NCBI RefSeq assembly: GCF_030269645.1
Contig: NZ_BSTR01000003.1
Coordinates: forward strand, 62,001 to 126,000
Direction of reading: 5' to 3'
Source: Actinokineospora sp. NBRC 105648
Lineage (GTDB): Bacteria; Actinomycetota; Actinomycetes; Mycobacteriales; Pseudonocardiaceae
DNA: 64,000 bases
How positions within the stretch are numbered: position 1 is the stretch's first letter; each line of letters opens with the position of its first letter. The notes under the pieces are model-generated. The model saw only the letters and a list, made by a program, of their open reading frames with translations, did not search any database and had not been told where the DNA came from. Below, one piece after another: positions 14,756 to 53,471 of the stretch. The translations under genes were made by a program, and so were the position numbers.

Positions 14756-14797
14756 CGGGGACTCCTGGGGTATGGTCGTGGGTGCTGCGTCCAGACT

Positions 14798-15566: not shown

Positions 15567-15579
15567 GCGGGCGGTGACC

Positions 15580-17663: not shown

Positions 17664-17722
17664 CGGTGGTGCCCCAGAATCACCGGCCGAAGCCAGAACC
17701 GGTGGAACAGGGGAGCTCCGAA

Positions 17723-37195: not shown

Positions 37196-37885
37196 TCATT
37201 CCGCGGCGACTCCCACCCACCGCTCGCCGTCGACGGCGGCGGAGACGGCCTCCGCGAGGCTGCCCACGACCGGCACCCCGAGCGGGGTGAAGTGGTCCAT
37301 CGTGTGCAGGGCGTCGTCGCCCGCGTGGTAGAGCACGCAGGCCACCCCGCACTCGCGAGCGGCGATCGCGTCGTCCACGCTGTCGCCGACCAGCAGCACC
37401 CGGGCCGGGTCGGCGTCCAGCCGCGCCAAGTGCCGTCGCAGGTGCGGGGCCTTGTTGCGGGTCTCGGTGTCGCGCAGCCCGTCCACCGCGGTGAAGTACC
37501 GGTCGATGCCGAAGTGCTCCACGAGCGGCAGTAGCCGGTCGTGCGGGTACATCGACAGCAGCGACTGGCTGCGCCGCCGGGCCAGCCACTGCCGCATGGT
37601 GCGCTCCGCCTCCGGGTTCAGCGCGATGGCGTCCCGACGACTCAGGTAGGCCCGTTGGAACTGCCGGTCGAGCGCGGCCTGCTCCGCGGCGGTCAGGGTG
37701 CGACCTAGCAGGGCGTCGTAGAACGCGGAGATCGGCTGGCGGTGCTTGGCCTGGTAGTCGGTCCGGGTGATCGGCGGCAGGCCCAGCGCCCGGAACGCGT
37801 CGATGGTCGAGTCGATGAGGGCCGGGCCGTCGGCGAACAGCGTGCCGTTCCAGTCCCAGACGATGTGCTCCACAGCGGTGGCCAC
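37196..37885 (-). CDS. HAD superfamily phosphatase
   Basis: 229 residues from GTG 37885 with AGAAGGA upstream. Nucleophile motif VWDWNGTLFADG (Asp in DWNGT), motif III Lys in ETRNKAPHLRRHL, and motif IV VLLVGDSVDDAIAARECG match phosphoglycolate-phosphatase-like HAD hydrolases. It is the last gene of the leftward set, 13 bases after the histidine phosphatase. In a cyclitol/nucleoside pathway it would remove a phosphate from an intermediate; a proofreading or salvage role is also possible. Confidence 0.88.
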   Translation of the reverse strand: MATAVEHIVWDWNGTLFADGPALIDSTIDAFRALGLPPITRTDYQAKHRQPISAFYDALLGRTLTAAEQAALDRQFQRAYLSRRDAIALNPEAERTMRQWLARRRSQSLLSMYPHDRLLPLVEHFGIDRYFTAVDGLRDTETRNKAPHLRRHLARLDADPARVLLVGDSVDDAIAARECGVACVLYHAGDDALHTMDHFTPLGVPVVGSLAEAVSAAVDGERWVGVAAE

Positions 37886-37898
37886 GGTCCTTCTCCCG

Positions 37899-38552
37899 TC
37901 AGGTGTCGATGTGGTCGGGGTCCGCCCGCCACTCGGGCGGCAGGTGGTCGAGCTCGCCCACCGCCCGCAGCGTCGCACGGCCGTCGGACAACCGCAGCCG
38001 GGTCACCGAACCCACGGTCACCGCGGCGATCTCCCGGTAGCGCGACGGCGGCAGGCCGAGGAAGAACGACATGATCAACCGGACCGGTGCCTTGTGGGTC
38101 ACCACCGCCACCCGCGACGAGTGCTCGAGCGCGTCGCGCACCGCGGCCACGGCGCGGGCCATCACCGCCAGACCGGACTCACCTCCGGGTGGGGTGAACA
38201 GGGCCGGGTCCTCGGTCCACCGCTGGTGCGCGGGGGTGTCGGCGACCTCTGCCGGCAACCGGTCCTCCCAGGCACCGAAGGACAACTCACGCAGGCGGTC
38301 GTCGACGGTGACCGGCAGGCCGGTCCGGCCGCCGATCGGCTCGGCGGTCGCCAGCGCCCGGCGCGCCGGGCTGCACAACAGCAGCTCCGTGCCCGCCAGC
38401 GCCGGGTGTTCGGCGAGGTAGCCACCCATCCGCTCGCCCACGGGCGAGAGCCCGCCGTCGTGGTCGCCGCAGAACCGGCCCTGCCGCGTGCAGTGCGTCT
38501 GGCCGTGCCTGATCAGCACGAGCTCGCCGGACAACCCGACGCGGGCGCTCAC
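37899..38552 (-). CDS. Histidine phosphatase family protein
   Basis: 217 residues from GTG 38552, whose GTGA overlaps the stop of the upstream phosphorylase gene. The catalytic LVLIRHGQTHCTRQGRFCGD, the RELSFGAWEDRL motif and the second His in VAVVTHKAPVRLI define the phosphoglycerate-mutase-like (branch 1) histidine phosphatases, which go through a phosphohistidine intermediate. The nearest characterised types act on sugar, cobalamin-precursor or nucleoside phosphates. Tight coupling to the nucleoside phosphorylase suggests removal of a phosphate from a pathway intermediate. Confidence 0.9.
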   Translation of the reverse strand: MSARVGLSGELVLIRHGQTHCTRQGRFCGDHDGGLSPVGERMGGYLAEHPALAGTELLLCSPARRALATAEPIGGRTGLPVTVDDRLRELSFGAWEDRLPAEVADTPAHQRWTEDPALFTPPGGESGLAVMARAVAAVRDALEHSSRVAVVTHKAPVRLIMSFFLGLPPSRYREIAAVTVGSVTRLRLSDGRATLRAVGELDHLPPEWRADPDHIDT

Positions 38553-39355
38553 GTCCTGGCTTCGGCCAGCGCGGACCGGCAGGGGCAGGCCGTCTCCTCC
38601 GGCAGCGCCGCGACGATCCGCCGCACGATGTCGAGCACCCGGTCGGAGTCTGCGTTGAAGGCCTTGAGCACGTTGTGGTGCGAGACGATGTCCGCGCGCT
38701 CCGCGCCGACCACCTCGGCGGCCGCCACGTCGTAGTCGGTGATGTAGGACAGGTTGGCGTAGCACAGTTCCAGCTCCCGGGCCAGGACGACCTCGGGGTA
38801 CTGGGTCATGTTCACCAGGTGCCAGCCCTGCGAGCTGAACCACTTGCTCTCCGCGCGGGTGGAGAACCGCGGCCCCTGGATGACCACCACCGTCCCGCTC
38901 GGGTGCACGGTGGCGTCGGCGCCCTGCAGCGCCTCGTGGGCCAGCGTGCGGATGCGGCCGCAGTACGGCTCGGCGGAGCTGATGTGGGCGCCGGTGTCAC
39001 CGGAGAAGAAGGTGTCCGCCCGGCCCCAGGTGCGGTCGACGAACTGGTCGGCCAACACGAAGTCGCCCTTGCGGTAGTCGGGTTGCAGGCTGCCGACGGT
39101 GTTGAACGCCACCGTCTGCCGCACGCCGAGCTCCTTGAGCGCCCAGAGGTTCGCCCGGTAGGGCACGTCGGCGGGCAGGTAGTCGTGGTTGTTGCCGTGC
39201 CGGGGCACGAACGCGACCGACTTGCCCGCGACCTCGGCCACGCTGATCGGCGCGCTGGTCTCCCCGTAGGGGGTGGACATGGTGACCTGCTCGGCGCCCT
39301 CCAGGAACTCGTAGAAGCCGGTCCCGCCGATGATGGCGATGCCTGGTTGCGACAT
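38549..39355 (-). CDS. 5'-methylthioadenosine/purine nucleoside phosphorylase family
   Basis: 268 residues from ATG 39355 with GGAGGAAC upstream. MTAP/PNP motifs are complete: IAIIGGTGFYEFL, FVPRHGNNHDYLPADVPYRA, FNTVGSLQPDYRKGDFVLAD and QGPRFSTRAESKWF. In primary metabolism these cleave methylthioadenosine with phosphate to adenine and 5-methylthioribose-1-phosphate. No other methionine-salvage gene is present here. Surrounded by a PfkB kinase, mutase and cyclitol synthase, the enzyme may instead run toward glycosidic bond formation, joining adenine to a cyclic sugar-1-phosphate analogue, or protect against a nucleoside. That role is inference. Confidence 0.88.
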   Translation of the reverse strand: MSQPGIAIIGGTGFYEFLEGAEQVTMSTPYGETSAPISVAEVAGKSVAFVPRHGNNHDYLPADVPYRANLWALKELGVRQTVAFNTVGSLQPDYRKGDFVLADQFVDRTWGRADTFFSGDTGAHISSAEPYCGRIRTLAHEALQGADATVHPSGTVVVIQGPRFSTRAESKWFSSQGWHLVNMTQYPEVVLARELELCYANLSYITDYDVAAAEVVGAERADIVSHHNVLKAFNADSDRVLDIVRRIVAALPEETACPCRSALAEART

Positions 39356-39381: not shown

Positions 39382-40725
39382 TTACCGCCGGATGGCGTCG
39401 ACGAGCACGGCGGGGACGCCCTGGTCGCGGGTCTCCCCGTAGACCCTGATGCCGCCCTCGGTGGTGGAGGCGCGCAGCAGCAGCCACTGCCCGCCGTCGA
39501 GCCAGAACTTCACACCGTCCACAGTGGTCACACCGGTCACCGCGCCCGCCTGCCCGGCCACCGCCAGTGCCCGGTGCCCGAGCTCGGTCAGGTCCACCGC
39601 CGACCGCCCGGCGACCAGGTACTCGAACCAGGTGAGCGGACCGACCTCGGCGCGCAGGTCGTCGACCAGCGCGGCCAGCGGGCGGCCGCTGGTGGCCAGC
39701 AGGTCGGCCAGCAGGACCGCGACGGCGAACGGGTCGCGGTCGGTGCCGAACTCGGCGAAGCCCAGGTCGCCGACCCCACCGCCCGCCGCGTCCACCTCGC
39801 CCGCGGCGAGGAGCGGGGACAGGTGCTTGAACCCGATGCCCACCTCGTGGACCGGGATGCCCAGCCGGGCCGCGACCGCCCGGGCCGCGGTCCCGCTCGC
39901 CGCCGTCACCCCGAGCCCGACACCGGGTTCCCGGTGCGCCAGCAGCAGGGCGAGCAACTCGTGCGGGTACACCGTCGCGCCCCGGTGGTCCAGCAGGTAG
40001 ACCCGGTCGCCGTCGCCGTCGAGCACCACGCCGAGGTCGGCCCGCTCGGCCACCACCCGATCCCGAGCCCGCTGCCGGGCCGCCGGGATCGTCGGGTCGG
40101 GAACCAGGCGGCCGAAGTCCGGCGCCGGTCCGCCGTCGACGGACAGCGCGCGCCAGCCCAGCCGCCCGGCGAACTCGGCGAACGGCGCCCCGGCGATGCC
40201 GCCGAGTCCGTCCACCACGACCGAGAGCTCGGATCGCGCGGACAGCCGGGACAGCACATCGGCCATGTGCGCGTCCAGCCATGGCGCCAACGGCTCGGCG
40301 GGCACCGGGTCCGGGGCAGCGGTGACGGGCCCCGGGTCGGCCGTCTCGATGGCCGCCTCCACCGCGCGCGGCAGCGGACCGCCGGGGGCCACCTTCACCT
40401 TGAGCCCGTTGAAGTGCGCGGGGTTGTGGCTGGCGGTGATCAGCAGGGCGAGGTCGACCAAACCGAGCCGGACCGCCGCGGTCGCCGTCGGGGTGGGCAG
40501 GTGCGCGACCAGCCGCACCTCCGCCGCGCCTGCGGCTACGGCCGCCGAGACCACTGCCTGGGCCGCGTCCGCCCCACCCTCGCGGCAGTCGTACCCGACC
40601 AGCACCCGCTTGCTGTCGACTGCTTTGACCACGCGGGAGGCCAGCACCGCCGCGGTGGCCGGGGTGAAGTCGGTTCCGATCACGCCGCGCCAGCCGTCGG
40701 CGCTGGCCCTGGCCTGCCAACTCAT
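39382..40725 (-). CDS. Phosphohexomutase-family (PMM/PGM) protein
   Basis: 447 residues; its start overlaps the PfkB stop by four bases. The phosphoserine loop ALLITASHNPAHFNGLKV, the metal loop VVLDGDGDRVYLLD and a C-terminal phosphate-binding RASTTEGGIRVYGETRDQG replacing RxSGTEP are recognisable. The sugar-binding GEMSG/GEESAG loop is not conserved (VGDLGFAEFGTDRDP), so the substrate probably differs from glucose or mannose phosphate. In this operon it would move a phosphate between positions (for example 5/6 to 1) to make the donor for the nucleoside phosphorylase. Confidence 0.85.
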   Translation of the reverse strand: MSWQARASADGWRGVIGTDFTPATAAVLASRVVKAVDSKRVLVGYDCREGGADAAQAVVSAAVAAGAAEVRLVAHLPTPTATAAVRLGLVDLALLITASHNPAHFNGLKVKVAPGGPLPRAVEAAIETADPGPVTAAPDPVPAEPLAPWLDAHMADVLSRLSARSELSVVVDGLGGIAGAPFAEFAGRLGWRALSVDGGPAPDFGRLVPDPTIPAARQRARDRVVAERADLGVVLDGDGDRVYLLDHRGATVYPHELLALLLAHREPGVGLGVTAASGTAARAVAARLGIPVHEVGIGFKHLSPLLAAGEVDAAGGGVGDLGFAEFGTDRDPFAVAVLLADLLATSGRPLAALVDDLRAEVGPLTWFEYLVAGRSAVDLTELGHRALAVAGQAGAVTGVTTVDGVKFWLDGGQWLLLRASTTEGGIRVYGETRDQGVPAVLVDAIRR

Positions 40726-41612
40726 GGCCGGTCCCGGGTGAGCGCGGACAGCAGGTCCGGCACCGTGGCCGGGCGGCCGCGGGCGCCGACCGCGCCGACG
40801 GCCAAGGCGCCTGCCGCGTTGCCCGCGGCCAAGCGGGAGCTGGGTGGCAACCCGGCCAAGTGCGCGAGCAGGTAGGCCGCGGCGAAGGCGTCACCCGCTC
40901 CGGTCGGGTCCACCACCGGTACCGGGTGGGCGTGGACGGTCACCTCCTGCGCACCGCGGCGCAGCGTCGAGCCCACCGCGCCCAGGGTGATGACCACGTC
41001 GGTGTCCGGTCCGGGGGCGGTGGCGAGCTCGTCGTGTTCGAACCGGTTGACGAACAGGATGTCGGTGTGCGGCAGCACTGTGGCAGTGACCGGGTCGCCC
41101 GCGAAGACCCCGCCCGGGGTCCAGCAGAGCAGGGTCGCGCAGGCGCCGACGGCCCGCAAGGCGTCCCGCGGTGGGTCGAAGAGCATCACGGCGTCGTAGT
41201 CGCCGGCGAGCGCCTCGCGCAGGTCGGTCGGGCCGAAGGTGTCGTTCGCGCCGCGGCAGAGCAGCATGTAGTGCCGGTCCCCGAACACCGGGATGACCAC
41301 GCGCCCAGTGGGTTCGGCGCGGCGGCGCACGGCGGCGACGTCCACCCCGCGCCCGCGCAGGTCCGCGACCAGGCGGTCGCCGTCGTCGTCGGCGCCGACC
41401 GCGCCCGCCACCGCCACCGAGACGCCCAGGGCGGCCAGGGCGGCCGCGCAGTTGCCCGCGTGCCCGCCGACCTCGGTGCTCACCGAGCGGACCGTCACCG
41501 CGCTCTCGTCAACCGGTTCCCGATCGGCGACCAGGATGAGGTCGACGTTGAGCGAGCCGATGACCAGCACCCGGACGCGGGCCGCGGCCGCGCGCACCGC
41601 GGCCGAGATCAC
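40722..41612 (-). CDS. PfkB family carbohydrate/nucleoside kinase
   Basis: 296 residues from GTG 41612, which overlaps the Rid-protein stop (GTGA). The N-terminal signature VLVIGSLNVDLILVADREP, a glycine-rich EVGGHAGNCAAAL and the catalytic PVVDPTGAGDAFAAAYL are intact, so it is probably an active ribokinase-type kinase. The substrate could be a sugar, cyclitol or nucleoside. Between a Rid protein and a mutase gene it fits phosphorylation of a cyclitol intermediate. Confidence 0.92.
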   Translation of the reverse strand: MISAAVRAAAARVRVLVIGSLNVDLILVADREPVDESAVTVRSVSTEVGGHAGNCAAALAALGVSVAVAGAVGADDDGDRLVADLRGRGVDVAAVRRRAEPTGRVVIPVFGDRHYMLLCRGANDTFGPTDLREALAGDYDAVMLFDPPRDALRAVGACATLLCWTPGGVFAGDPVTATVLPHTDILFVNRFEHDELATAPGPDTDVVITLGAVGSTLRRGAQEVTVHAHPVPVVDPTGAGDAFAAAYLLAHLAGLPPSSRLAAGNAAGALAVGAVGARGRPATVPDLLSALTRDRP

Positions 41613-42034
41613 GGCTCGGCCCGCGCGGTGGTCAGCGCGATGCCGCTGATCTCCACCAGGCAGCCCGACTCGGCCAGCCGGGCAACCTCGACCAGGGTGC
41701 TCGCCGGCGCCGGGTCGCCCAGCACGCGGTTGCGCACCGTCGAGACGGCACCGAAGTCGCGGACGACGTCGGTCAGGTAGACCACCACGCTGACCAGGTC
41801 CGCCGGGGTGGCGCCCGCCTCGGCGAGCACCTCGGCGATCCGGGTGAAGACGACCTCGGCCTGCCCGCCCGCGTCGCCCGGGTGCAGCACCGCGCCGGTG
41901 TCGTCGGTGGCCACCTGGCCGCTGACGAACACCAGCCTGCTCCCCGGGCCGACGTCGACGGCCACGCCGGGGCTGTACTTGCCGATGGGTTTGGAGTGGC
42001 GGTCCGGGGTCAGTGCCCGCGCGTCAGTGCCCAC
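41609..42034 (-). CDS. Rid family protein lacking the RidA arginine
   Basis: 141 residues from GTG 42034, overlapping the SDR stop by 25 bases. The YjgF/YER057c/UK114 fold is clear (FVSGQVATDDTGAVLHPGDA, VFTRIAEVLAEAGATPADLV). RidA enamine/imine deaminases have PARS with a catalytic Arg; here the site reads DPAPASTLVEVARL, without Arg. It therefore is unlikely to be a standard 2-aminoacrylate deaminase and may bind or process another intermediate, as the Rid homologues in other pathways do. Confidence 0.85.
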   Translation of the reverse strand: MGTDARALTPDRHSKPIGKYSPGVAVDVGPGSRLVFVSGQVATDDTGAVLHPGDAGGQAEVVFTRIAEVLAEAGATPADLVSVVVYLTDVVRDFGAVSTVRNRVLGDPAPASTLVEVARLAESGCLVEISGIALTTARAEP

Positions 42035-42771
42035 TGCTCGACCCTTTCCGGGAACGGTCCGTAGGTGGCGGTCATGGCGGCCAGTTGCAGGTGCCGGATC
42101 TCGACGCCGGGCGGCGCGGCGAACAGGGTGGCGACCACCCCGGCCACCTCGGCGGCGGTCAGCGCGCCCACCCTGGTGCCCGGCGCGGCGTCGGCGTGGC
42201 TGCCCTGGAAGTGGGTGTCGACGCGGCTGGGCAGCAGCGCGGACACCCGCACCCCCAGGTGGCGCACCTCCCGGCGCACCGACTCGAGCAGCGCGCCCAT
42301 CCCCGCCTTCGACGCCGAGTACGCCGTGCGGTCGGCGTGCGGGTAGAGCACGGAGTCGGACAGCACGCCGACGATCAGTCCCGCGCGCCGCGCGACAAGC
42401 CGCGGCACGGTGGCGCGCAACGTGTGGAAGGCGCCGTGCAGGTTGGTCCGCAGCGTGCGGTCCCAGTCATCTAAGTCCACATCGGACAATGGGGACCACC
42501 GGCCGGAGCCCGCGTTGAGCACCACCCCGGCGAGTGGCTCGGCCAGGTGCGCCGATGCGGCGGTCACCTGGTCGGCGTCGCCGACGTCGACCACTGCGGT
42601 GCGCACCGCCCCGCCTGCGGCCTCGACCGCGGCCGCGGTCGAGGCCAGTCCGTCGGCGGACCTGGCCCACAGCACCAGGTCGAAGCCGTCGGTGGCCAGT
42701 CGCTCCGCCACCGCCGCCCCGATGCCGCGGCTGGCCCCGGTCACCAGCACCCACCCGCGCCGCCCGGTCAC
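42010..42771 (-). CDS. Short-chain dehydrogenase/reductase
   Basis: 253 residues from GTG 42771, whose GTGA overlaps the DJ-1-like gene stop. Classical SDR: cofactor motif VLVTGASRGIGAAVAERL, VVLNAGSG, catalytic Ser in GVLSDSVLYP and Tyr-x-x-x-Lys in AYSASKAG. The RS after the cofactor beta2 strand (LWARSADG) suggests NADP(H). Likely oxidises or reduces a hydroxyl/ketone of the cyclitol intermediate. Confidence 0.92.
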   Translation of the reverse strand: MTGRRGWVLVTGASRGIGAAVAERLATDGFDLVLWARSADGLASTAAAVEAAGGAVRTAVVDVGDADQVTAASAHLAEPLAGVVLNAGSGRWSPLSDVDLDDWDRTLRTNLHGAFHTLRATVPRLVARRAGLIVGVLSDSVLYPHADRTAYSASKAGMGALLESVRREVRHLGVRVSALLPSRVDTHFQGSHADAAPGTRVGALTAAEVAGVVATLFAAPPGVEIRHLQLAAMTATYGPFPERVEQWALTRGH

Positions 42772-43361
42772 CGCGGCGCCGCCTGACCGCGCCCGGGGAC
42801 GATCTCCATCCGCTCGGCCACCGCGCGCACCGCGCCGGGAGCGCGGTCGGCCAGCAGCGCGAAGGCCAGGTCGACCGACTTCACCGACGGCGCGGCGTCG
42901 CCGCCCACCGTGCACAGCCGCCCATCGCGCACCAGACCGGTGACGATCTCGCCCACCGGGTGCGTGCGCAGCAGCGCCCGCTTGCCGTGGTGGACCGCGA
43001 CCCGGCGGGACGCCGCCAAGCCCGCGGCGGCGATGAGCAGCACCCCGGAGCAGACCGCGTAGAAGGTCCCACCGCGCTCGGCCGCCGCCCGCAACGCCGC
43101 CAGCAGGTCGGCGTCGGTGGCGGCCGACGCCGCGCCCCGACCGCCCGGCACCACCACGACGTCGGCGTCGGCGACGTCCGCCAGGTCCGCGCCCACCGCC
43201 AGGGAGACCCCGCAGGACGTGGTCGCCCGCCGGTCCTTGGCCGCCAGCCGGACGCGCAGACCCGCGTCCGCCTCGGCGGCCTTGACCAGGACCGAGTGCG
43301 CGCCGAACAGGTCCAGCGCGTCGACCAGCGGGTAGGCGAGCACCGCGACCTCGGTGGTCAC
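42768..43361 (-). CDS. DJ-1/PfpI (class I glutamine amidotransferase-like) protein
   Basis: 197 residues from GTG 43361 (GTGA overlap with the cyclitol synthase stop). VVVVPGGRGAASAAT and the nucleophile elbow YAVCSGVLLIAAAGL with the Cys, followed by VAVHHGKRALL, match DJ-1/PfpI proteins, close to isonitrile hydratase-like or the N-terminal half of GATase-type AraC regulators, but no DNA-binding domain is present. The role in the cluster is not clear; hydrolysis or hydration of a small metabolite is possible. Confidence 0.85.
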   Translation of the reverse strand: MTTEVAVLAYPLVDALDLFGAHSVLVKAAEADAGLRVRLAAKDRRATTSCGVSLAVGADLADVADADVVVVPGGRGAASAATDADLLAALRAAAERGGTFYAVCSGVLLIAAAGLAASRRVAVHHGKRALLRTHPVGEIVTGLVRDGRLCTVGGDAAPSVKSVDLAFALLADRAPGAVRAVAERMEIVPGRGQAAPR

Positions 43362-44452
43362 GGGTGCGCGTTCGCGGCGGGCCGCGCGGTGTCGTCGAGC
43401 GCGCGCAGGCTCGCGGCGACGACCTCCGGTGAATGGGCCCCGTGCCCGCCCGCGGGCGACTTGAGCACGCCCGCGGCGGCGGGGCAGAACCCGCCGATCC
43501 CCGACCGCAGCGCCGCCGCCGCGATCCGGACCAGGTCGATGATCACCCCGGAGGCGTTGCTGGAGTCCTGCACCTTCAGCTTCAGGTCGAGCGAGACCGG
43601 CGTGCCCGCCCACCCCCGGCCCTCCAGGTTGAGGACCGCGACCTTGTTGTCTTTGAGCTGGCCGATGAACCCCGCCGACGGGATCACCTCGACCCGGCTG
43701 GTGTCGACGCCGTCCTGGGCCAGGGCGTTGAGCTTGGACTGCTGCTTGCTCGCGCCCTGGTCCCGCAGGTTGCGGAAGTCCTCGTTGCCGCCGAAGTTGA
43801 GCTGGTAGGAGCTGACCAGCGTGATGCCGCGGGCGGCGAGCAGGCCCAGCAGCGCCCGGTGCACCACCGAGGTGCCGAACTGGCTGGCCAGGTCGTCGCC
43901 GATGAGCGGCACCCCGGCCCGCTCGAAGTCGGCCAGCAGCTCGGGGTCGCGGGCCATCAGCTCCGGCGTGCAGTTGACCGCGGCGACCCCGGCGGCCAGC
44001 GCCGCCCGCGCGTAGGCCGTCGCCGTCTTCTGCAGGCCGGTCGGCAGCGAGTACAGCAGCACCTCGGCGCGGCTCTGCCGCAGCCGCTCGACCACCCGGT
44101 CGAAGGCGGCGGACCCGGGTTCGGAGTCGGCCACCCGCATGCCCTCGTCGACGACCACGTCGACCTCGGGCAGCTCGACGTCGAGCCGGGGGTAGTTGTT
44201 GGGCGGGCACAGGACCGCGTCGGTGAACGCGGCGCCCACCTTGGCCGGGTGCACGTCGAACGCGGCCACGAAGCGGAGGTCGGACACCCCCAGCCCGGCG
44301 ACCCGGGGCAGCCGGATTCCGGGGAAGCTGTCCTCGGTTATTCCTTCGGCGTCGGCGCGCCGATAGTATTCGGCGCCTTGGAACAGCGCCGAGATGTTGT
44401 TTCCCACCCCGGCGACCGCGAGGCGAAGCGGCTCCATCACGTGCGTCACCAT
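43358..44452 (-). CDS. myo-Inositol-1-phosphate synthase family cyclase
   Basis: 364 residues from ATG 44452. Inositol-phosphate-synthase features: NAD site LAVAGVGNNISALFQGAEYY, VSSYQLNFGGNEDFRNL, a SKQQSK lysine loop, SAGFIGQLKDNKVAVLNLEGR with the catalytic DxK lysine, and DSSNASGVIIDLVRIAAAA. It is shaped like the short bacterial Ino1 type but differs in the substrate-binding region (LPTGLQ in place of LPVGS). It lies inside an operon with sugar-processing enzymes, not with mycothiol or phosphatidylinositol genes. A relative, Ari2, makes a five-membered cyclitol phosphate from fructose 6-phosphate in aristeromycin biosynthesis. Ring size and substrate here are unknown. Confidence 0.88.
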   Translation of the reverse strand: MVTHVMEPLRLAVAGVGNNISALFQGAEYYRRADAEGITEDSFPGIRLPRVAGLGVSDLRFVAAFDVHPAKVGAAFTDAVLCPPNNYPRLDVELPEVDVVVDEGMRVADSEPGSAAFDRVVERLRQSRAEVLLYSLPTGLQKTATAYARAALAAGVAAVNCTPELMARDPELLADFERAGVPLIGDDLASQFGTSVVHRALLGLLAARGITLVSSYQLNFGGNEDFRNLRDQGASKQQSKLNALAQDGVDTSRVEVIPSAGFIGQLKDNKVAVLNLEGRGWAGTPVSLDLKLKVQDSSNASGVIIDLVRIAAAALRSGIGGFCPAAAGVLKSPAGGHGAHSPEVVAASLRALDDTARPAANAHP

Positions 44453-44549: not shown

Positions 44550-45551
44550 TCAGTGCGAGATCGGTTTGTCGCACCCGGCCCGCAGCGCTTGTTCGACAAG
44601 GGCCTGGGCGGCGTGGCCCGCGGTGAAATCGGCGACGGTGACCGGGTCGTCGCCGGAGAGCAGCCCGGGGTAGGGGTTCATCGGGTCCGGCCCGAAGTCG
44701 GTCGACGAGCCCGCCGGGTGGCGGCGCAGGGTCGCGCTGCCGTCGTCCGGGTTCGCGCTGACCTCGGCCGAGCCGTCGGCGCCCTGCACCCGCACCCGCA
44801 GCGCGCGCTCGCCGGTCGACACCCGGGAGACGAACACGCGCGCCCTGGCCGCGCCGTCGTCGCGGCCCAGCAGGACCTCGGCGACGTCATCGGTCTCGCA
44901 GGCCACCTGGTCAGGGCCGTGCGAGCGGCGCGGCCACACCACCGACGCCGTGCCCGCGGTGACCGCCCACGAGCCCGGTGCCAGCCACGCCAGCAGGTCG
45001 AACAGGTGCACGCCCTGGTCGCCCAGGGCGCCCGCACCCGCGGTCTCCCACCGGTGCCGCCACGGCCACGCGGTCCGCGGCCCGGCGAGGAAGTCGTGCC
45101 GGAAGTCCAGGTCGAGGTGGACCAGTTCGCCGAGTTCGCCGCGCGCGCACAGCTCGCGCAGGACCCGCAGCGCCCGGTTCGCCCGCCACTGGAAGCTCAC
45201 CGCCGCGCGGCCGGGGTGCCCGGCCGCCGCCTCGGCCAGCCGGGCCGCGGTGGGCAGGTCGTGGGCCAGCGGCTTGTCGCTGACCACGCGCAGCCCGGCG
45301 GCCAGGCCCGCCGCCAGGTAGCGCTCGTGGGTGTCCGGGGGACTGGCCACGACCAGCGCGTCCACCGCCCCCGCGGTGATGGCCGAGAGCGGGTCGGCGG
45401 TGGCGGTGGCGCCCGGGAAGCGGGCGGCGAGCCGCCGCGCGCGGTCCCCGTCGCGCCGGTACCCGATGAGCCGCACCCGCGCGCCGGGGCATTCGGAAAT
45501 CCACGTCAAATGTTGCTCGCCAAATCCGGCCCCGACCACCAAGAAGTCCAT
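44550..45551 (-). CDS. Gfo/Idh/MocA family oxidoreductase
   Basis: 333 residues from ATG 45551 with GGGGGA upstream. Rossmann motif LVVGAGFGEQHLTW, then DALVVASPPDTHERYLAAG and the DKP motif (VVSDKPLAHD, the family EKP position), and a C-terminal beta-sheet domain with ALGDQGVHLFDLLAWLA. Members oxidise or reduce sugars, cyclitols and their amino derivatives with NAD(P). It is the gene before the cyclitol synthase in transcription order, 97 bases upstream, and has a 295-base region before it that could hold an internal promoter. Confidence 0.9.
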   Translation of the reverse strand: MDFLVVGAGFGEQHLTWISECPGARVRLIGYRRDGDRARRLAARFPGATATADPLSAITAGAVDALVVASPPDTHERYLAAGLAAGLRVVSDKPLAHDLPTAARLAEAAAGHPGRAAVSFQWRANRALRVLRELCARGELGELVHLDLDFRHDFLAGPRTAWPWRHRWETAGAGALGDQGVHLFDLLAWLAPGSWAVTAGTASVVWPRRSHGPDQVACETDDVAEVLLGRDDGAARARVFVSRVSTGERALRVRVQGADGSAEVSANPDDGSATLRRHPAGSSTDFGPDPMNPYPGLLSGDDPVTVADFTAGHAAQALVEQALRAGCDKPISH

Positions 45552-45846
45552 GTTGGTCCCCCGAGATAGAAACCCGCGCCAGAAAGAGTGTCCGGTCTGC
45601 TGGATTTTCACGCCCGGCCTCCAGGAAACCACAGCCGAGCCCGGGAGTGCAAGTAGCGGTGCTGGAGCGCGCATTCCCAATGCGACAGTCACCTAAAGTC
45701 ATCGGTGCCACTGCTCCGGCCGGGTGAGCCGCCGCTGCGGGTGGTCCGGCGAACGCGGCAGCTCATTCCGGTGAATGCGCGGTCGCCAAATAGGTAAGAT
45801 GGGATTAGTGCGCCCGCCGAACCCGCGCGGGGTGACCGGTCGCGTT

Positions 45847-46863
45847 TTACGACTCGTTGACCCGGGCGAGGACCGCGGGGACGACCTCGGTGGCGAAGGC
45901 GGTCACCGCCGCCACCGCCTGGGCGTGGTCGAGACCGGGCAGCCTGCCCCACAGGCACAGGTGGTCGAACGGCACCCGCCGGTGCAGGGCGACGACCTTG
46001 TCGGCCACCGTGGCCGGTGAGCCCACCAGGTAGTTGTCCCGGTCGAGGCCCGCCGCGTCCGGGACCGGGGGTCGTGGTGCCCCCGCGGGGAGCCGGTGCG
46101 CGGCGAAACCGTGCTCCAGCAGGGCTATCGCCGGTCCGGCCACCCGCCACGCCGACTCGTCGTCGGGCCCGACGTGCGCTGTCGCGCCGAGGACGACCGG
46201 TACGTGCCCGGTCCGCCCGGCCCGGCCGAGGGCGTCCACCCACAGGCCGTACCGCTCCTCGACGCCGCCGTCGCCCGCGTAGATCAGCACCCCGTCGGCC
46301 AAGCGCGCCGCGCGCTCGAAGGCGGGCCGGGCGAAGGCGCCGAGCTGGATCGGGATCGGGCGGGCGGGCCGCGGGCCGAACGGACCCGCGGGCAGCTGCC
46401 ACCGCCTGCCGTGGAACTCGGTCTCGCCGGTGCTCCACACCTGCCTGCACAACGCGATCGCGTCCTCCACAAGGGACGGACGGTTCCTGGGCGGCACACC
46501 GAGGAGCGCGTTCTCGTGGTCGACGTAACCCTGCCCGAGGGTCAGGGTCAGCCTGCCGCCGGAGAGCAGGTCGACCACGGCCGCGTCCTCGGCCAGGCGC
46601 AGCGGGTGGTGCAGCGGGGCGATGACCGCGTTGGTGCCGATGCCGATCCGGCTCGTGCGCGCGGCCACCGCGGCGGCCGCGACCAGCGGGGCGGGCAGGA
46701 ACCCGTCCGCGCTGCCGTGGTGCTCGGGCAGCCACACCATGCTGTAGCCCAGCCGCTCGGCCAGTTCGATCTCGGCCAGCCGCTCGGCGTAGTGCGCCGC
46801 GTCGGTCACACCGGGCGCGGCACAACGGAAGTCGTGCACCACGCCGAAGGTCGGGGCGCTCAC
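45847..46863 (-). CDS. LLM-class flavin-dependent oxidoreductase
   Basis: 338 residues from GTG 46863, overlapping the SAH-hydrolase/cupin stop (GTGA). Luciferase-like TIM barrel: YSMVWLPEHHG, IGIGTNAVIAPLHHPLRLAEDAAV, DLLSGGRLTLTLGQGY, and a C-terminal YLVGSPATVADKVVAL. It should use FMNH2 or F420H2 to oxygenate or reduce a substrate. In this operon it may introduce a hydroxyl or cleave a bond; the reaction cannot be told from sequence. Confidence 0.88.
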   Translation of the reverse strand: MSAPTFGVVHDFRCAAPGVTDAAHYAERLAEIELAERLGYSMVWLPEHHGSADGFLPAPLVAAAAVAARTSRIGIGTNAVIAPLHHPLRLAEDAAVVDLLSGGRLTLTLGQGYVDHENALLGVPPRNRPSLVEDAIALCRQVWSTGETEFHGRRWQLPAGPFGPRPARPIPIQLGAFARPAFERAARLADGVLIYAGDGGVEERYGLWVDALGRAGRTGHVPVVLGATAHVGPDDESAWRVAGPAIALLEHGFAAHRLPAGAPRPPVPDAAGLDRDNYLVGSPATVADKVVALHRRVPFDHLCLWGRLPGLDHAQAVAAVTAFATEVVPAVLARVNES

Positions 46864-48380
46864 TCGGCCACCTCGCCGTGGTCATCAGCGTGGTGGTCGT
46901 CCGCGCTCCAGGACGGGCTGGACACCGCCCAGAAGGCCAGCCCGCGCTCGCCCGCGACGAAACCGTGCCGGACCCCCGGCGGCACCACCACGACCTGCCC
47001 GGCGGTCACCGGCGTCGGCACCCCGTCGAGGATGGCGGTCCCGGAGCCCGCGCCGAGGACGAAGGTCTCCTCGGTGACCCGGTGGTGGTGCACCGGCACC
47101 GACGCCCCCGGGGCCAGCGTGGAGTGGGCGATGCTGTGGCCGCGGTGCGCGCGGCCCAGGTGCGCGCCGACGACCTCCCGCAGCGCGTGCGCCGGGTCGT
47201 CGGTGACCGGGGCCAGGTCGGCGACGGTGATCACTTCCGCGTGCGCGGGCGGGCGTTCGGCCAACATCAACTCGGCGAGTCTGCGCTGCTCCCGCTCGGG
47301 GAAGTCGACGAGACCCGGTGGCGCGTCCCGCCACGACCCGTCGAGCAACCACGCGCAGCCCAGCATCATCAGCGCGTTGAACGGGTCCCACAGGTCGTCG
47401 CCGAGCGAGGCGTGCGGGTAGGCCAGGTTGAGCGGGCTGGCGCCGCCGAGGACGAAGACCGTCCGGCCACCGGGCCGGTGGTGCTCGACGACCCCCGGCC
47501 GCGACTCGCGGCTCGGCCAGCGGGCCAGGTGGGCGAGGTCGATCTCGGTGGGCGCGTGGCCCGCGTTGACCACCACCGCCCCGGCGGGCAGCCGGTCGAG
47601 GACGGCGGCGTCGACCACACCGTCGATCCCCGTCGCGGTGACGATCACCTCGGCGTCCGCCGCCGCCTGCGCCGCGTGCTCGGCGACAGCGCACCCGTGC
47701 AGCCGGGCCGCGACGCGCCGCAGCGGGTCGGGCTCGGCCACGGTGACCAGCGCGCCGAGCGCGCGGGCCCGCTCGGCGACGCCCTTGCCGACGTTGCCGA
47801 ACCCGACGACCAGCACCCGGCGCCCCAGCAGCCCGATCCCGGTCAGTGCCGAGAAGGCCGTCCAGACCGCCTCCGCGACGTGGAACCGGTGTTCCACCTG
47901 CTGCTTGAACGGGATGTCGTTCCAGTTGAGCACCGGCATGGGCAGCGATCCGGCGGCGCGGATGCGGTGGATGCCGGTGGTCGTGGACTCCATCGCCGCG
48001 CGCGGCGGGCACCCCGCCCGGACCAGTGCGGCGATCAGTTCACCACCCATCTCGCTCACCTCGGTCGGCCGCCACGCGACGGCCCGCGCGAGCAGGTCCG
48101 CGTGCCGCTCAGGGGTTTCCGCGAGCACCAGGGCTCCCCGCCCGCGCAGGTGGTCGATCACCGCGGGGTCGGCGGTGGTGGGGTCACAACTACCGAACAG
48201 CACGGTCGCACCGGTGTCGAGCAGCCAGTCGAACAGGGGCACCGCGTTGTCCACCAGGTGCACCCAGCAGGCCAGTCTGCTCTCGGGAAAGCACTGATCG
48301 CCCAGTTCGTCGGCCATCCGCGCGGTCACCGGCATGGCCCGCCGCGGCCAAGCCGGGCGTTCAGCGCTGTTCGAGTCCAC
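46860..48380 (-). CDS. S-adenosylhomocysteine-hydrolase-like protein fused to a cupin
   Basis: 506 residues from GTG 48380 with GGGAG upstream. Residues ~20-370 resemble SAH hydrolase: WVHLVDNAVPLFDWLLDTGA, MESTTTGIHRI, LNWNDIPFKQQVEHRFHVAE, the NAD site VLVVGFGNVGKGVAERA and VVNAGHAPTEIDL. Family active-site positions are partly kept (His55, Glu156, Lys186, His301 equivalents) and partly changed (Asp131, Asp190 to Glu, Cys195). The usual C-terminal tail that completes the neighbouring NAD site is replaced by a cupin (~395-490; VPVHHHRVTEETFVLG and PPGVRH metal ligands). It may perform NAD-dependent redox/elimination on a nucleoside or cyclitol, or act as a resistance homologue. Confidence 0.85.
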   Translation of the reverse strand: MDSNSAERPAWPRRAMPVTARMADELGDQCFPESRLACWVHLVDNAVPLFDWLLDTGATVLFGSCDPTTADPAVIDHLRGRGALVLAETPERHADLLARAVAWRPTEVSEMGGELIAALVRAGCPPRAAMESTTTGIHRIRAAGSLPMPVLNWNDIPFKQQVEHRFHVAEAVWTAFSALTGIGLLGRRVLVVGFGNVGKGVAERARALGALVTVAEPDPLRRVAARLHGCAVAEHAAQAAADAEVIVTATGIDGVVDAAVLDRLPAGAVVVNAGHAPTEIDLAHLARWPSRESRPGVVEHHRPGGRTVFVLGGASPLNLAYPHASLGDDLWDPFNALMMLGCAWLLDGSWRDAPPGLVDFPEREQRRLAELMLAERPPAHAEVITVADLAPVTDDPAHALREVVGAHLGRAHRGHSIAHSTLAPGASVPVHHHRVTEETFVLGAGSGTAILDGVPTPVTAGQVVVVPPGVRHGFVAGERGLAFWAVSSPSWSADDHHADDHGEVAE

Positions 48381-48405: not shown

Positions 48406-49602
48406 CTATCGGAGGTCCGCGCCCGCCTCGCTGTCCGACCTGGCGAACGACGGCGCCGACAGCACCACCAGGAACGCCAGCGTGGCGGCGATACCGGCCA
48501 CCGCGAAGGTGGGGGCCAACCCGAGGTGGGGCAGGACCGCGCCCGCCGCGCCCGACCCCGCCGCGCTGCCGCCCAGGAACACCGCGGTGACCCAGGCGAA
48601 CGCCTCGGTGACGGTTCCGCGCCGGGCCACCTTCCCGATGAGCACGAAGGTGCAGGTGAGCACCGGCGCCAGGCCCAGGCCCGCGAAGGTGATCAGCACG
48701 ACCATGGTGGGCCGGTCGGCGACCACCACCAGCGGCCAGGTGCACGCCGCCATGGCGACCAGCAGCCAGAGCAGCCTGCGCAGCGGCTCACCCGACCAGC
48801 TCCGCGCGCCGTAGGCGAGCCCGCCGACCAGGCTGCCCACCGAGAAGGCGCCGAGCAGCACCCCGGAGAACCCGGGGGCCCCGGTGCGCTCGGCGTAGGC
48901 CACCGTGGCGACGTTGAACACGCCGACGACCGCGCCCACGAACAGCATCCCGGCCAGGAGCACGACCAGCAGGGGCGAGCGCAGCGCCCCGGCCCAGTGC
49001 CGCGGCCGCTGCTCGCCCCGCCACCGGCGCACCGGCGGGTTCGCCGTGTAGAGCAGCGTTCCCAGCACGCCGAGGACGCCGATCACCAGCAGCGTGGTCG
49101 TGGTCGAGGTCGCGCCCACCAGCAGGACCACCACCAGCGGACCCGCTACGAAGAGGATGTTCTGCAGCGCGGTGTCCAGCGCGTAGGCGACCTCCACAGT
49201 GGACGCGTCGGGCAGCACGCTCGGCCACATGCTGCGCAGCGCCGGTTCCAGTGGCGGCATGAAGAACCCCGCGACCGCCACACCGGCGAGTGCCGCCGGG
49301 AAGGACGAACCGCCCAGCCAGGCCAGCAGCGCGAACCCGGCGCCGGAACCGACCGCGCCCACGAGCAGGGTGGTGGACTGGCCCCGGCGGTCGACGATCC
49401 GACCCAGGACGGGACTGCCGATCGCCGTGCAGACGCCGTACACCGCGGCCACCGCGCCGACCCGACCGTAGGACACGTCGTTGGCCCGCAGGAAGAGCAC
49501 GGTCGCCAGCGCTCCCATGCCGTTGGGCAGTCGACCGAGGAAGTTGACCGCCAGCAACCGGAGCGCGTACGGCTGGCGCAGGCAATGCCAGTACTTCCGC
49601 AC
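48406..49602 (-). CDS. MFS transporter
   Basis: 398 residues from GTG 49602 with GGGGAGGA eight bases upstream. Twelve predicted membrane segments; the MFS loop 2-3 motif appears as GSPVLGRIVDRRGQST. The drug/nucleoside exporter type is likely from position: it is the first gene of the leftward set, 25 bases before the SAH-hydrolase/cupin gene, and divergent from the GMC oxidoreductase. Probably exports the cluster product. Confidence 0.92.
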   Translation of the reverse strand: MRKYWHCLRQPYALRLLAVNFLGRLPNGMGALATVLFLRANDVSYGRVGAVAAVYGVCTAIGSPVLGRIVDRRGQSTTLLVGAVGSGAGFALLAWLGGSSFPAALAGVAVAGFFMPPLEPALRSMWPSVLPDASTVEVAYALDTALQNILFVAGPLVVVLLVGATSTTTTLLVIGVLGVLGTLLYTANPPVRRWRGEQRPRHWAGALRSPLLVVLLAGMLFVGAVVGVFNVATVAYAERTGAPGFSGVLLGAFSVGSLVGGLAYGARSWSGEPLRRLLWLLVAMAACTWPLVVVADRPTMVVLITFAGLGLAPVLTCTFVLIGKVARRGTVTEAFAWVTAVFLGGSAAGSGAAGAVLPHLGLAPTFAVAGIAATLAFLVVLSAPSFARSDSEAGADLR

Positions 49603-49826
49603 AGTCGAGGTCCTCCCCAGGTGTCGACCCGTCCGTCCCCGATGATCGTCGCCCATCCCGGAACCGGTGACAATCGCTCGATCAGACCGTAGACGCCCCG
49701 GAAGGGGCTGTGCCACACTCCGAAGCCAGGACCGCTTCGCCCGGTCCCCGCGCCCGGTCCCGTGGGCGCCCTCGATACCCCTCCGCCGTGTCTGATTTCC
49801 TCCGCCCCCTCGTGCCGGGAGAACCC

Positions 49827-51323
49827 ATGACCGACTCCGATTTTCCGTCGCACCACGACGTCCTCGTCCTCGGCGGCGGGGTGGCCGGTTGCGTGCTGGC
49901 CGCCCGGCTCAGCGCAGATACCGACCGCTCGGTATGCCTGGTGGAGGCGGGACCGGACTACGGGCCGGACAGCCCGAACTGGCCGCAGACCATGCTCGAC
50001 GCCCGCGTGCTGCCTCGCGACGAGGTGTGGGAGACCGAACCGGCGCCGCACCGGATCAGGGCGAAGGTGCTGGGCGGGTCGTCGTGCATCAACGGGTGCT
50101 GGCACACCTGGGGATCAGAGCAGGACCACGCCGGGTGGGCCGCTCGTGGTGGCCCGGACTGGTCGGCCGCCGGGCTCGAGCCGTTCCGGCAGGTGGCCGT
50201 GGAGCGGATGCGGCTGCGCGCCATCCCCGACGCCGAGCTGTCGGTGTGGAGCAGCGGGGCACTGGCCGCCGCCGCCGAGTTGGGCTACCCGGAGGTGGCC
50301 GACCTGGCCGCGCCCGGCGTCGGCCCGGGGTACGGCTGCCCGCCGGTCAACGCCATCGGAGACCTGCGCTGGAACGCCGCCTTCGCCTACCTGAACCCGG
50401 CGCGCGACCGGCCGAACCTGAGCATCCTCAGCGGCACCACGGTGCACCGGCTGATCGTGCGCGCCGGAGTGGTCCAAGGCGTCGAGGTCGACCAAGGCGG
50501 AACGCCCCGCACGCTCACCGCCGACACCTACATCCTGACCGCGGGCGCGTACGGCTCGCCCGCGGTGTTGCTGCGCAGCGGGATCGGACCGGCCGACCAC
50601 CTGAGCGAGCTGGGCGTGCCCGTCGAGGTCGACCTGCCCGCGGTGGGCTCGAACCTGACCGACCACCCCTGCCTGGTCCTGCCGCTGACGCCCACGGCGG
50701 AGCTGAACGCCGCACTCGCCCGCAAGGAGGCGGCGGGCGAGCTGTACGCCAGCCAGGTCGCCCTCAAGGCAGCCAGCGAGCTCTGCCCCGAGGGTGGGTG
50801 GGACCTGCACCTGCTGCCCACCGCGGGCCCGCCGCTGTTCGGCTCGCTGCCACCGGGGGAGTACGAGGTCGGCATCGCCGCCTTCCTGATGAGCCCGCTG
50901 TCGCGCGGGTCCCTGCGGCTGCGGTCGGCCGATCCCGACGTCCCGGTCGACATCGACCTCGCGCTGTTCACCGACCCGGACGGCCGTGACCTGGCGGTGG
51001 CCCGCGACGGCCTGCGCCTGGCGGCGGAGCTGGCCGCGTCGTCGGCGTTGAAGTCGTGGGCGACCCCCGCGGCCGGGGGCGACCCCGCCGCGCTGGGCGA
51101 CGACGAGCTGCGTTCCCGCGCGGGCACCTACTGGCACCCGGTCGGCACCTGCGCCATGGGCACCGGCGACGACGCCGTGGTGGACCCCGAGGGGAGGGTG
51201 CGCGGGGTGGCCAACCTGCGAGTGGTCGACGCCTCCATCCTGCCCACCGTGCCCGCCGCCAACACCCAGCTCCCGGTGCTGGCGGTCGCCGAGCTGCTGG
51301 CCGAGCGGCTGATCCGTGGCTGA
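49827..51323 (+). CDS. GMC-family FAD-dependent oxidoreductase
   Basis: 498 residues from ATG 49827 with GGGAGAAC. FAD site DVLVLGGGVAGCVLAARLSA ending CLVEAG, GMC signature VLGGSSCINGCWHTWGSEQD, second signature TAGAYGSPAVLLRSGIGPA, and the catalytic His in YWHPVGTCAMGTGDD. Members oxidise alcohols (choline, sugars, cyclitols) to carbonyls. It starts the rightward arm of the cluster, 224 bases from the divergent MFS gene, and is followed directly by an SDR. Confidence 0.93.
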   Translation: MTDSDFPSHHDVLVLGGGVAGCVLAARLSADTDRSVCLVEAGPDYGPDSPNWPQTMLDARVLPRDEVWETEPAPHRIRAKVLGGSSCINGCWHTWGSEQDHAGWAARGGPDWSAAGLEPFRQVAVERMRLRAIPDAELSVWSSGALAAAAELGYPEVADLAAPGVGPGYGCPPVNAIGDLRWNAAFAYLNPARDRPNLSILSGTTVHRLIVRAGVVQGVEVDQGGTPRTLTADTYILTAGAYGSPAVLLRSGIGPADHLSELGVPVEVDLPAVGSNLTDHPCLVLPLTPTAELNAALARKEAAGELYASQVALKAASELCPEGGWDLHLLPTAGPPLFGSLPPGEYEVGIAAFLMSPLSRGSLRLRSADPDVPVDIDLALFTDPDGRDLAVARDGLRLAAELAASSALKSWATPAAGGDPAALGDDELRSRAGTYWHPVGTCAMGTGDDAVVDPEGRVRGVANLRVVDASILPTVPAANTQLPVLAVAELLAERLIRG

Positions 51324-51339
51324 GCCGGGGGAGACCACT

Positions 51340-52068
51340 GTGGACGGACAGGTCGCCCTGGTTACCGGGGCCTCCCGGGGCATCGGCGCGGCGATCGCGG
51401 TCGACCTCGCCCGTGCGGGCTACACGGTCGTGATCAACCACCGCGACTCGGCCGAGGACGCGCGCCGGGTGGCCGAGGCCGGCGGCCCGACCGCCACGGT
51501 GATCGCCGCCGACGTGGCCGACCACGCGGCGGTCCGGCGGCTGACCGAGGAGGTGACCGACCGGCACGGCAGGCTCGACGTCCTGGTCAACAACGCGGGC
51601 GTCACCCTGCCCGACGACTGGCGCACGCTCGACCCGGCTCGGTGGCAGCGATGCCTCGACGTCAACGTGACCGGGGTGTTCCACTGCGTCCAGGCGCTGG
51701 CCCCGCTGCTCGAGGCCACCGGCCGCGGCCGGATCGTCAACATCGGCTCCACCTACGCGGGCATGGGCGTCGGCGCGATCGCAGCCTACGCCGCGGCCAA
51801 GGCGGGCATCGCAGCGCTGACGACGGCCTTCGCCAAGGAGCTCGCACCGGTGGTGACGGTCAACCTGGTCGCGCCGGGCAACATCGACACCGACATGACC
51901 CGCTCCGTGGGCGAGGAGTTCGTCGCGGCCACCGTCGCCCAGACCCCGCTGCGCAGGCTCGGCACCCCCGAGGAGATCGCCCGCCTCGTCCGGTTCGTCG
52001 TGTCCGAGGACGCGGCGTTCATCACCGGCCAAACCCTGGTGTGCGACGGCGGCCACTCGCTGCGGTGA
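51340..52068 (+). CDS. Short-chain dehydrogenase/reductase
   Basis: 242 residues from GTG 51340, with GGGGGAG six bases upstream; an in-frame GTG at 51316 inside the GMC gene is an alternative that would overlap it. Classical SDR: ALVTGASRGIGAAIAVDLA, LVNNAGVT, Ser in NIGSTYAGMG, AAYAAAKAG (catalytic Tyr/Lys) and a FabG-like C terminus FITGQTLVCDGGHSLR. Probably cotranscribed with the GMC gene and acting on the ketone it makes. A terminator follows at 52122. Confidence 0.92.
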   Translation: MDGQVALVTGASRGIGAAIAVDLARAGYTVVINHRDSAEDARRVAEAGGPTATVIAADVADHAAVRRLTEEVTDRHGRLDVLVNNAGVTLPDDWRTLDPARWQRCLDVNVTGVFHCVQALAPLLEATGRGRIVNIGSTYAGMGVGAIAAYAAAKAGIAALTTAFAKELAPVVTVNLVAPGNIDTDMTRSVGEEFVAATVAQTPLRRLGTPEEIARLVRFVVSEDAAFITGQTLVCDGGHSLR

Positions 52069-52176: not shown

Positions 52177-53412
52177 TCACGCGGTGGCGGATGGCCTTTC
52201 CGGAGTGGTGCCGTCGAGGAGCAGTTTCGCCGCCACCGCCGCCCCGTCGCCGCGGACCGTGCCTGCCACGGCCCTGGCCCGCGTTCCGGTGGTGGGGGAC
52301 AGCGCTGTGGTGAGCGCGGCGGACAGGGAGTCGACGGTCGGGGTCGAACCCTCGTGTGCCGCGCCGATGCCCAACTCGGCGATTCGGCCTGCCCAGTACG
52401 GCTGGTCCGCGATCCGCGGGACCACCACCTGGGGCGCACCTGCTCGAGCGGCCGTCGTGGTGGTGCCCGCGCCGCCGTGGTGCACGACGGCGGCCACCCT
52501 GGGGAACAGGGCCTGCTGGTTGACCTCGCCGACGACGAAGCAGTCGTCGGCGTCGTCGATCGGGGCCAGCCCAGCCCACCCGCGGGCGAGCACGACGCGG
52601 CGGCCTTGCGCGCGGGCAGCCTCGGTGGCCACGCGGGCGATCTCGGCCGGTGCATGGCTTGCCATGCTGCCGAAGCCGACGTACACCGGTGGCTCGCCCG
52701 CGTCGAGGAACGCCTCCAACCCGTCCGGGAGCGGGCGGTCGTCGGGCAGGATCCACGCTCCTGTCTGGACGACGTCGAGGTCGGTCTTACCTTGCGAGGG
52801 ACACAGGACCGGATCCGCGGCCAGCCACGGCCGGGCGGTGAGAACGTGGTCGCGGACGTTGTCCACCGGCGGCAGGCCGATCGCCGCCCGGTGCCGGTTG
52901 AGCGCCTCGCCGTACAGGCCGTTCACCCGCTGGGCGTCCTGCTCCCACAGCACCCGGTTGTCGGTCTCGTCCACCGGGGACGGTGTACCCGGCCGGGCCC
53001 CCGGAGCGGAGTGCCGCGACGGCAGCCCGAGCAGGTGGAAGCACGCGAGCACGTAGCGAATGCCCAGTTTCTCGGCCACGTCCGGCGCACCCGCGGGCAT
53101 CAGGCCGGTCGCCACCAGCGCGTCACACCCCTCGGCCGCCGCGCCCAGCGTCTCGAACCGCGCGGCGACCAGCTCCGGAGCGAGCCGGAAGGCGTCCTGC
53201 GCCGTCGGTGGCCGCGTACCCGCGACCACCGACCGCACCGACGGTCCCAACGGCACCATCGGCACACCGACCCGCGCCAGCAACTCCACGAAGTCCTCGT
53301 CCGGCGGGGCGCACACCAGCGCCTCGGCGCCGAGGTCCCGCAACGCGACCGCGAGGCCCACCAGCGGTTCGACATCCCCGCGCGATCCCCACGTCGTCAA
53401 CAGCACACGCAC
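52177..53412 (-). CDS. rgt: Rifampin glycosyltransferase, copy 2
   Basis: 411 residues from GTG 53412, the same start as copy 1; an ATG at 53439 is possible but not conserved. MGT-fold features: VLLTTWGSRGDVEPLVGLAV, GLMPAGAPDVAEKLGIRYVL, VYVGFGSMASH, VGEVNQQALFPRVAAVVHHG and DQPYWAGRIAELGIG. Its sequence looks closer to characterised rifampin glycosyltransferases than copy 1 does, by eye. The RAE at 53472-53490 supports rifamycin-linked control. It stands alone between terminators and is not next to helR. Confidence 0.88.
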   Translation of the reverse strand: MRVLLTTWGSRGDVEPLVGLAVALRDLGAEALVCAPPDEDFVELLARVGVPMVPLGPSVRSVVAGTRPPTAQDAFRLAPELVAARFETLGAAAEGCDALVATGLMPAGAPDVAEKLGIRYVLACFHLLGLPSRHSAPGARPGTPSPVDETDNRVLWEQDAQRVNGLYGEALNRHRAAIGLPPVDNVRDHVLTARPWLAADPVLCPSQGKTDLDVVQTGAWILPDDRPLPDGLEAFLDAGEPPVYVGFGSMASHAPAEIARVATEAARAQGRRVVLARGWAGLAPIDDADDCFVVGEVNQQALFPRVAAVVHHGGAGTTTTAARAGAPQVVVPRIADQPYWAGRIAELGIGAAHEGSTPTVDSLSAALTTALSPTTGTRARAVAGTVRGDGAAVAAKLLLDGTTPERPSATA

Positions 53413-53471
53413 TTCTGAATCCCCATTTCCCCAGGTCATGGCTTACGGCGGGCAATTGTGGGGTACGACCC

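Follow-up and report, generated by a model that had tools for sequence, protein, structure and literature searches.

The DNA analysed here, a 64,000-nucleotide stretch from Actinokineospora sp. NBRC 105648 (the window), contains a gene that joins an SAH hydrolase (SAHH)-like protein to a cupin. Is such a protein still a SAH hydrolase, and if not, what could the two domains do together? The open reading frame has a GTG start and a strong coding composition (GC3 of 0.93), and is divided as follows.

46860..48380, minus strand: SAHH-cupin fusion of the MacW type, 506 aa
47262..48359, minus strand: SAHH-like part, residues 8-373, with substrate-binding and NAD domains
46917..47189, minus strand: cupin domain, residues 398-488

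Fold and reading frame of the fusion

The fusion of an SAHH-like protein with a cupin carrying a metal motif, proposed by the initial annotation, is confirmed by Pfam, a PDB sequence search and an AlphaFold2 model. Pfam places AdoHcyase_NAD at residues 178-320 (3.8e-23) and Cupin_2 at residues 420-476 (2.8e-11). The PDB search matches Thermotoga maritima SAHH (3x2e) over residues 8-373 (E 8.8e-34), hence both SAHH domains are present rather than the NAD domain alone. The model (mean pLDDT 84.1, pTM 0.73) finds its best structural matches in T. maritima and Pyrococcus furiosus SAHH, with a TM-score of 0.83 to 3x2f by target length. Sequence search and model thus agree on the overall SAHH fold. 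The curated SAHH models are not reached, with 142.1 bits for TIGR00936 (cut-off 497.6) and 169.6 for NF004005 (cut-off 275), and the same genome encodes a separate canonical SAHH (L062:824-2347). Together with the active-site residues, these scores and the canonical copy rule out an ordinary SAHH. An assembly or frame artefact is ruled out by the occurrence of the fusion as one open reading frame in three genera.

Active-site residues of the SAHH-like part

Residues were compared in an alignment of 28 SAHH-like sequences with the canonical SAHH of the genome as control; human SAHH serves only as a ruler for numbering. The fusion retains H55, T157, T159, K186, K226, E243, H301 and N346 as well as the NAD motif GFGNVGKG, in line with the earlier view that the NAD site and several catalytic residues are kept. 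In the fusion's own numbering, H41 corresponds to H55, N45 to E59, M111 to D131, S132 to E156, T133 to T157, K159 to K186, E163 to D190, H164 to N191 and H275 to H301. The replacements pointed out previously, D131 to Met, D190 to Glu and C195 to Val, hold, and the alignment adds E59 to Asn, Q85 to Asp, E156 to Ser, N191 to His and M358 to Trp. The C195 change is uninformative, however, since the position is not conserved in the canonical control, where it is Ile. The K426/Y430 tail, described as replaced by the cupin, is indeed missing, but its loss carries little weight because all aligned cluster SAHH paralogues and the archaeal-type SAHHs also lack it (PMC13406329, PMC7765604).

Within the SAHH catalytic set (H55, D131, E156, K186, D190, N191 and H301), the fusion is altered at D131, E156, D190 and N191. 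Against the essential set of AgmF (His56, Asp129, Lys184, Asp188 and His299), Asp129 is replaced by Met in the window and by Thr in both orthologues, and Asp188 by Glu. By these residue tests, the fusion is a member of neither the SAHHs nor the AgmF dehydratases. In SAHH, the 2'-OH is held by E156 and D190 and the 3'-OH by T157 and K186; H55, D131 and H301 surround the 5'-OH, and D131 moves the C4' proton (PMC4647836). Read against these roles, the pattern of kept and changed residues suggests that the oxidation machinery is retained, the C4' base lost and the 2' side rebuilt. The adenine pocket is altered in all three known fusions (E59N, M358W, F362N/A), and the substrate may thus be something other than an adenine nucleoside. 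The three other SAHH paralogues of the mac cluster retain E59, M358 and F362. A hypoxanthine-type SAHH is ruled out, as the HxExK signature of Euryarchaeota SAHHs (PMC10978960) is absent and HLVDN or HLTxN stands in its place. HxExK is present in stand-alone SAHH-like proteins from the window's own family (L028-L033), which have Asn at D131.

Among known enzymes, the archaeal-type SAHHs (T. maritima 3x2e and P. furiosus 7r37) share with the fusion the fold, the NAD motif, K186, H55, H301 and the missing Lys/Tyr tail. The fusion differs from them at D131, E156, N191 and E59 and by the added cupin, at 27-28% identity. AgmF, the angustmycin A dehydratase, is another SAHH homologue that a nucleoside antibiotic pathway has recruited, but it keeps all catalytic residues including Asp129 and has no reported cupin.

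The cupin domain

The metal motif of the cupin (H431-x-H433-x4-E438 ... H472) is invariant in the three orthologues, and the Cupin_2 motif G(X)5HXH(X)4E(X)6G is complete together with the second His motif. Searched alone by fold, the domain gives ordinary small-cupin matches, and its neighbours include Pac13, DddK, KdgF, ectoine synthase and phosphomannose isomerase. The DMSP lyase family PF16867 matches the cupin region of the fusion from Streptomyces sp. NBRC 110611 (1.3e-6). Quercetin dioxygenase ranks first in a profile search with the cupin, and neither sequence nor fold comparison singles out a cupin subfamily for the fusion. The residue two positions after the metal Glu is Tyr in the orthologues and Phe in the window fusion. 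A comparable known enzyme is Pac13, the pacidamycin nucleoside dehydratase, which is a small cupin and works on an oxidised nucleoside. Unlike the fusion cupin with its full HxH-E-H motif, Pac13 is a separate, metal-free protein, and identity between the two is 16-17%.

The gene cluster and its relation to mac

The fusion sits in a 15-kb cluster of the carbocyclic-nucleoside type.

37196..37978, minus strand: HAD phosphatase
37911..38525, minus strand: histidine phosphatase
38549..39355, minus strand: MTAP-type nucleoside phosphorylase, Ari9/MacI position
39382..40725, minus strand: phosphosugar mutase, GlmM/PGM family
40722..41612, minus strand: PfkB kinase, ribokinase / ribose-1-phosphate kinase-like
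41609..42034, minus strand: RidA family protein
42010..42915, minus strand: SDR dehydrogenase
42786..43361, minus strand: DJ-1/PfpI family protein
43358..44452, minus strand: MIPS-family cyclitol phosphate synthase, Ari2/MacB position
44550..45692, minus strand: Gfo/Idh/MocA dehydrogenase, MacA position
45847..46863, minus strand: LLM oxidoreductase, luciferase-like, F420/FMN type
48406..49716, minus strand: MFS transporter, 69% to the Kutzneria orthologue
49710..51323, plus strand: GMC oxidoreductase, conserved in the Kutzneria cluster (70%)
51316..52068, plus strand: second SDR, conserved in the Kutzneria cluster (67%)

For the HAD phosphatase, the SDR dehydrogenase at 42010..42915, the Gfo/Idh/MocA dehydrogenase and the MFS transporter, translation probably begins downstream of the listed ORF start. 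The GMC oxidoreductase and the second SDR diverge from the cluster genes that share one strand. Two glycosyltransferase-like genes with similar N-termini flank the cluster (17666-18946 and 52177-53439) and were not seen in the Kutzneria block. The LLM start overlaps the fusion stop by 4 bp (GTGA). An LLM orthologue is absent from the genomes of Micromonospora haikouensis, Streptomyces sp. NBRC 110611 and Kutzneria buriramensis; its absence from both orthologous clusters means that a partnership with the fusion is not general.

According to PMC12648386, which cites Xu et al. 2018, the mac cluster of M. haikouensis DSM 45626 comprises 24 genes and makes both aristeromycin and coformycin; macWGJK are attributed to the former and macXMNO to the latter. 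The same paper names Ari9 and MacI/T together as search probes, and Ari9 is called an adenosine phosphorylase elsewhere (PMC8599513). Counting the Gfo gene of the M. haikouensis locus as A, MIPS comes second and a phosphorylase ninth, in agreement with Ari2 and Ari9. In this count, the letters I and T belong to phosphorylases, M to SAICAR synthetase, N to an SDR, and G, J and K to the three SAHH-like genes; upstream, the fusion takes W and HisG takes X. From this gene order, with several independent fixed points, we infer that the M. haikouensis fusion is macW. The window gene fits the MacW type, being one open reading frame with both domains beside the MIPS/phosphorylase core.

MacW and the window fusion share the same two domains at 51% identity over the whole length, and both clusters share the neighbours Gfo-MIPS-DJ-1-SDR-RidA-PfkB-PGM-phosphorylase. 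Three additional SAHH-like genes and the HisG, SAICAR and SDR genes of a coformycin cassette occur in mac and not in the window, whereas the LLM gene is found in the window only. A PenC-type query for the coformycin cassette gave no match in the window's genome. The mac cluster also contains adenosine deaminase and IMP dehydrogenase homologues (L071:7038-9506), which may explain carbocyclic inosine or have a role in self-protection.

Distribution, selection and origin

The fusion was expected to be an unusual architecture, and a search for the same two-domain arrangement bears this out. Orthologues occur as single open reading frames at 51-52% identity in M. haikouensis DSM 45626 (L040) and Streptomyces sp. 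NBRC 110611 (L041), both adjoining the same cluster core, so that all three fusions lie inside carbocyclic nucleoside clusters. The fusion is not widespread: no further one was found in ~1,740 genome searches, with some genomes sampled twice. The profile searches took in class, order, Micromonospora and Streptomyces genomes and recovered their positive controls with E below 1e-270; at the family level, no match covered the cupin except the window itself. A description of an SAHH-cupin fusion was not found in the open-access papers searched.

Both domains are under purifying selection, with dN/dS of ~0.25 for the SAHH part and ~0.22 for the cupin when the two closer orthologues, from M. haikouensis and Streptomyces sp. 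NBRC 110611, are compared. The fusion is a real, rare and conserved variant of SAHH-like enzymes recruited to nucleoside antibiotics. In a maximum-likelihood tree, the three fusions group together (100/99), which points to one origin. Their sister is a stand-alone SAHH-like protein from another genome of the window's family (L025; 100/99, long branch). The initial annotation had asked whether the domains separate in close relatives lacking cluster context. This nearest SAHH relative is stand-alone and outside such a cluster, but at 39-41% identity it is an outgroup. A single clade of the fusions with cluster paralogues of the MacG/J/K type was rejected (p-AU 0.0005, long branches present), hence the fusion was probably recruited separately from MacG/J/K.

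The K. buriramensis cluster (L042) has neither fusion nor LLM, and the MFS gene is directly followed by Gfo. Its genes at 5178-17201 are 53-74% identical, gene by gene, to the window cluster and include no SAHH-like gene. The clusters of Saccharopolyspora elongata (L043) and Longimycelium tulufanense (L044) also lack the fusion and contain other SAHH-like genes.

Proposed function and alternatives

Given the aristeromycin-like type of the cluster, the fusion is probably an undescribed tailoring enzyme of such a pathway rather than a SAH hydrolase. Our tentative reading of the sequence evidence, plausible if somewhat short of probable, is a MacW-type tailoring oxidoreductase that uses NAD on a carbocyclic nucleoside or cyclitol and whose metal-cupin acts on the ketone. 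The SAHH part would bind NAD+, and the equivalents of Lys186 and Thr157 might oxidise the ring hydroxyl matching the 3'-OH in a carbocyclic nucleoside or cyclitol precursor. Oxidation of the 3' type is proposed because SAHH itself turns aristeromycin into its 3'-ketone (PMC4647836). As a prediction, the oxidation suggested initially is supported by the macW context, the MIPS and phosphorylase neighbours and the retained K186, T157 and NAD site. With Met or Thr in place of the Asp131 base, proton transfer at C4' of the SAHH/AgmF type would be absent, and standard chemistry at this carbon is unlikely. The changes E156S, D190E and N191H cluster around the 2'-OH contacts.

The metal-cupin may then act on the ketone, with acid-base catalysis of a lyase or isomerase kind (enolisation, epimerisation or beta-elimination) as its likeliest role. 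Pac13, whose dehydration of a nucleoside aldehyde probably follows an E1cB course (PMC5656905), and the lyase and isomerase cupins among the fold neighbours provide precedents. A cupin follow-up step, also part of the initial annotation, is compatible with these neighbours and with the invariant metal motif, even though they do not settle on one subfamily. The LLM enzyme, whose gene is translationally coupled to the fusion, may reduce the product in the window cluster. Several observations speak against this tailoring oxidoreductase: the adenine pocket is lost although the mac paralogues keep it, the Tyr near the metal Glu is replaced by Phe in the window, and the ketone must travel between two pockets. 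The top profile match, quercetin dioxygenase, argues against a lyase or isomerase cupin. A stricter version, in which an NAD domain without C4' base makes the ketone and the metal-cupin adds a new C2'-side reaction (elimination, epimerisation or loss of the base), is doubtful, if worth considering. We know of no follow-up reaction of that type described for any SAHH relative.

Neplanocin A contains a ring alkene, and an AgmF-like dehydratase could form such a double bond by 3'-oxidation, C4' elimination and re-reduction in one SAHH pocket, leaving the cupin a structural role. AgmF is an SAHH homologue doing such chemistry in angustmycin A (PMC8599513), PMC12648386 reports neplanocin A from the mac producer, and H55, K186 and H301 are kept in the fusion. 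However, the D129A variant of AgmF is inactive (PMC8599513), and because the equivalent residue is Met or Thr in all three fusions, the fusion is unlikely to be a dehydratase of this type. A structural role also fits poorly with the conservation of both domains, metal ligands included, and for adenine nucleosides MacG, J and K, whose adenine pocket is kept, are the better candidates. The lost pocket could instead be explained by action before base attachment, on a cyclopentane cyclitol (phosphate), for example in hydroxyl removal or inversion; the core genes supply a MIPS-derived cyclitol (PMC11188666). This seems improbable, as the Kutzneria cluster lacks the fusion despite sharing the core genes, and the SAHH substrate domain otherwise binds nucleosides.

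Self-protection or turnover, in which the fusion binds or destroys SAHH-inhibiting carbocyclic nucleosides, for example by 3'-oxidation followed by cupin-assisted base loss, appears less probable still. In its favour, C1' is beta to a 3'-ketone, the altered residues lie on the 2' side, aristeromycin is bound and oxidised by SAHH (PMC4647836), and nucleobase leaks from SAHHs as a side product (PMC10978960). Yet the Kutzneria, Longimycelium and Saccharopolyspora clusters do without the fusion, its adenine pocket is poor, and macW belongs to the genes that PMC12648386 reports for aristeromycin synthesis.

Aristeromycin and neplanocin are SAHH inhibitors and antiviral leads, and the fusion bears on how they are finished after ring formation. 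The mac cluster has four SAHH-like genes; the window cluster has the core genes and only the odd one, MacW, with MacG, J and K absent. With MacW alone in the window and a version without it in Kutzneria, the MacW step is directly testable by comparison.

Related clusters

Scanned genome-wide, the MIPS alignment matched 22 loci, 14 of which (L040-L052 and L059) carry at least SDR and RidA core homologues, with further core genes varying. In L047, L049 and L050 (Streptosporangium, S. hygroscopicus and S. poriferorum), MIPS, SDR, RidA and PfkB were detected without phosphomutase or phosphorylase; these clusters perhaps make a different cyclopentane product. MIPS relatives of 52-57% in Streptomyces, Catellatospora, Actinoplanes and Micromonospora (L053-L058) have most other core genes not nearby. 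At a contig end, S. elongata carries two adjoining SAHH-like genes (L037:13657-15612 and L037:14340-16685), the latter of which no longer has H55, K186 or H301 and resembles a pseudoenzyme. Four Alphaproteobacteria loci (L045, L048, L051 and L059) contain carbocyclic-core clusters with MIPS, DJ-1, SDR, RidA, PfkB and phosphomutase, to which L045 and L059 add a phosphorylase and two SAHH-like genes. These core clusters may represent carbocyclic nucleoside producers outside the actinomycetes.
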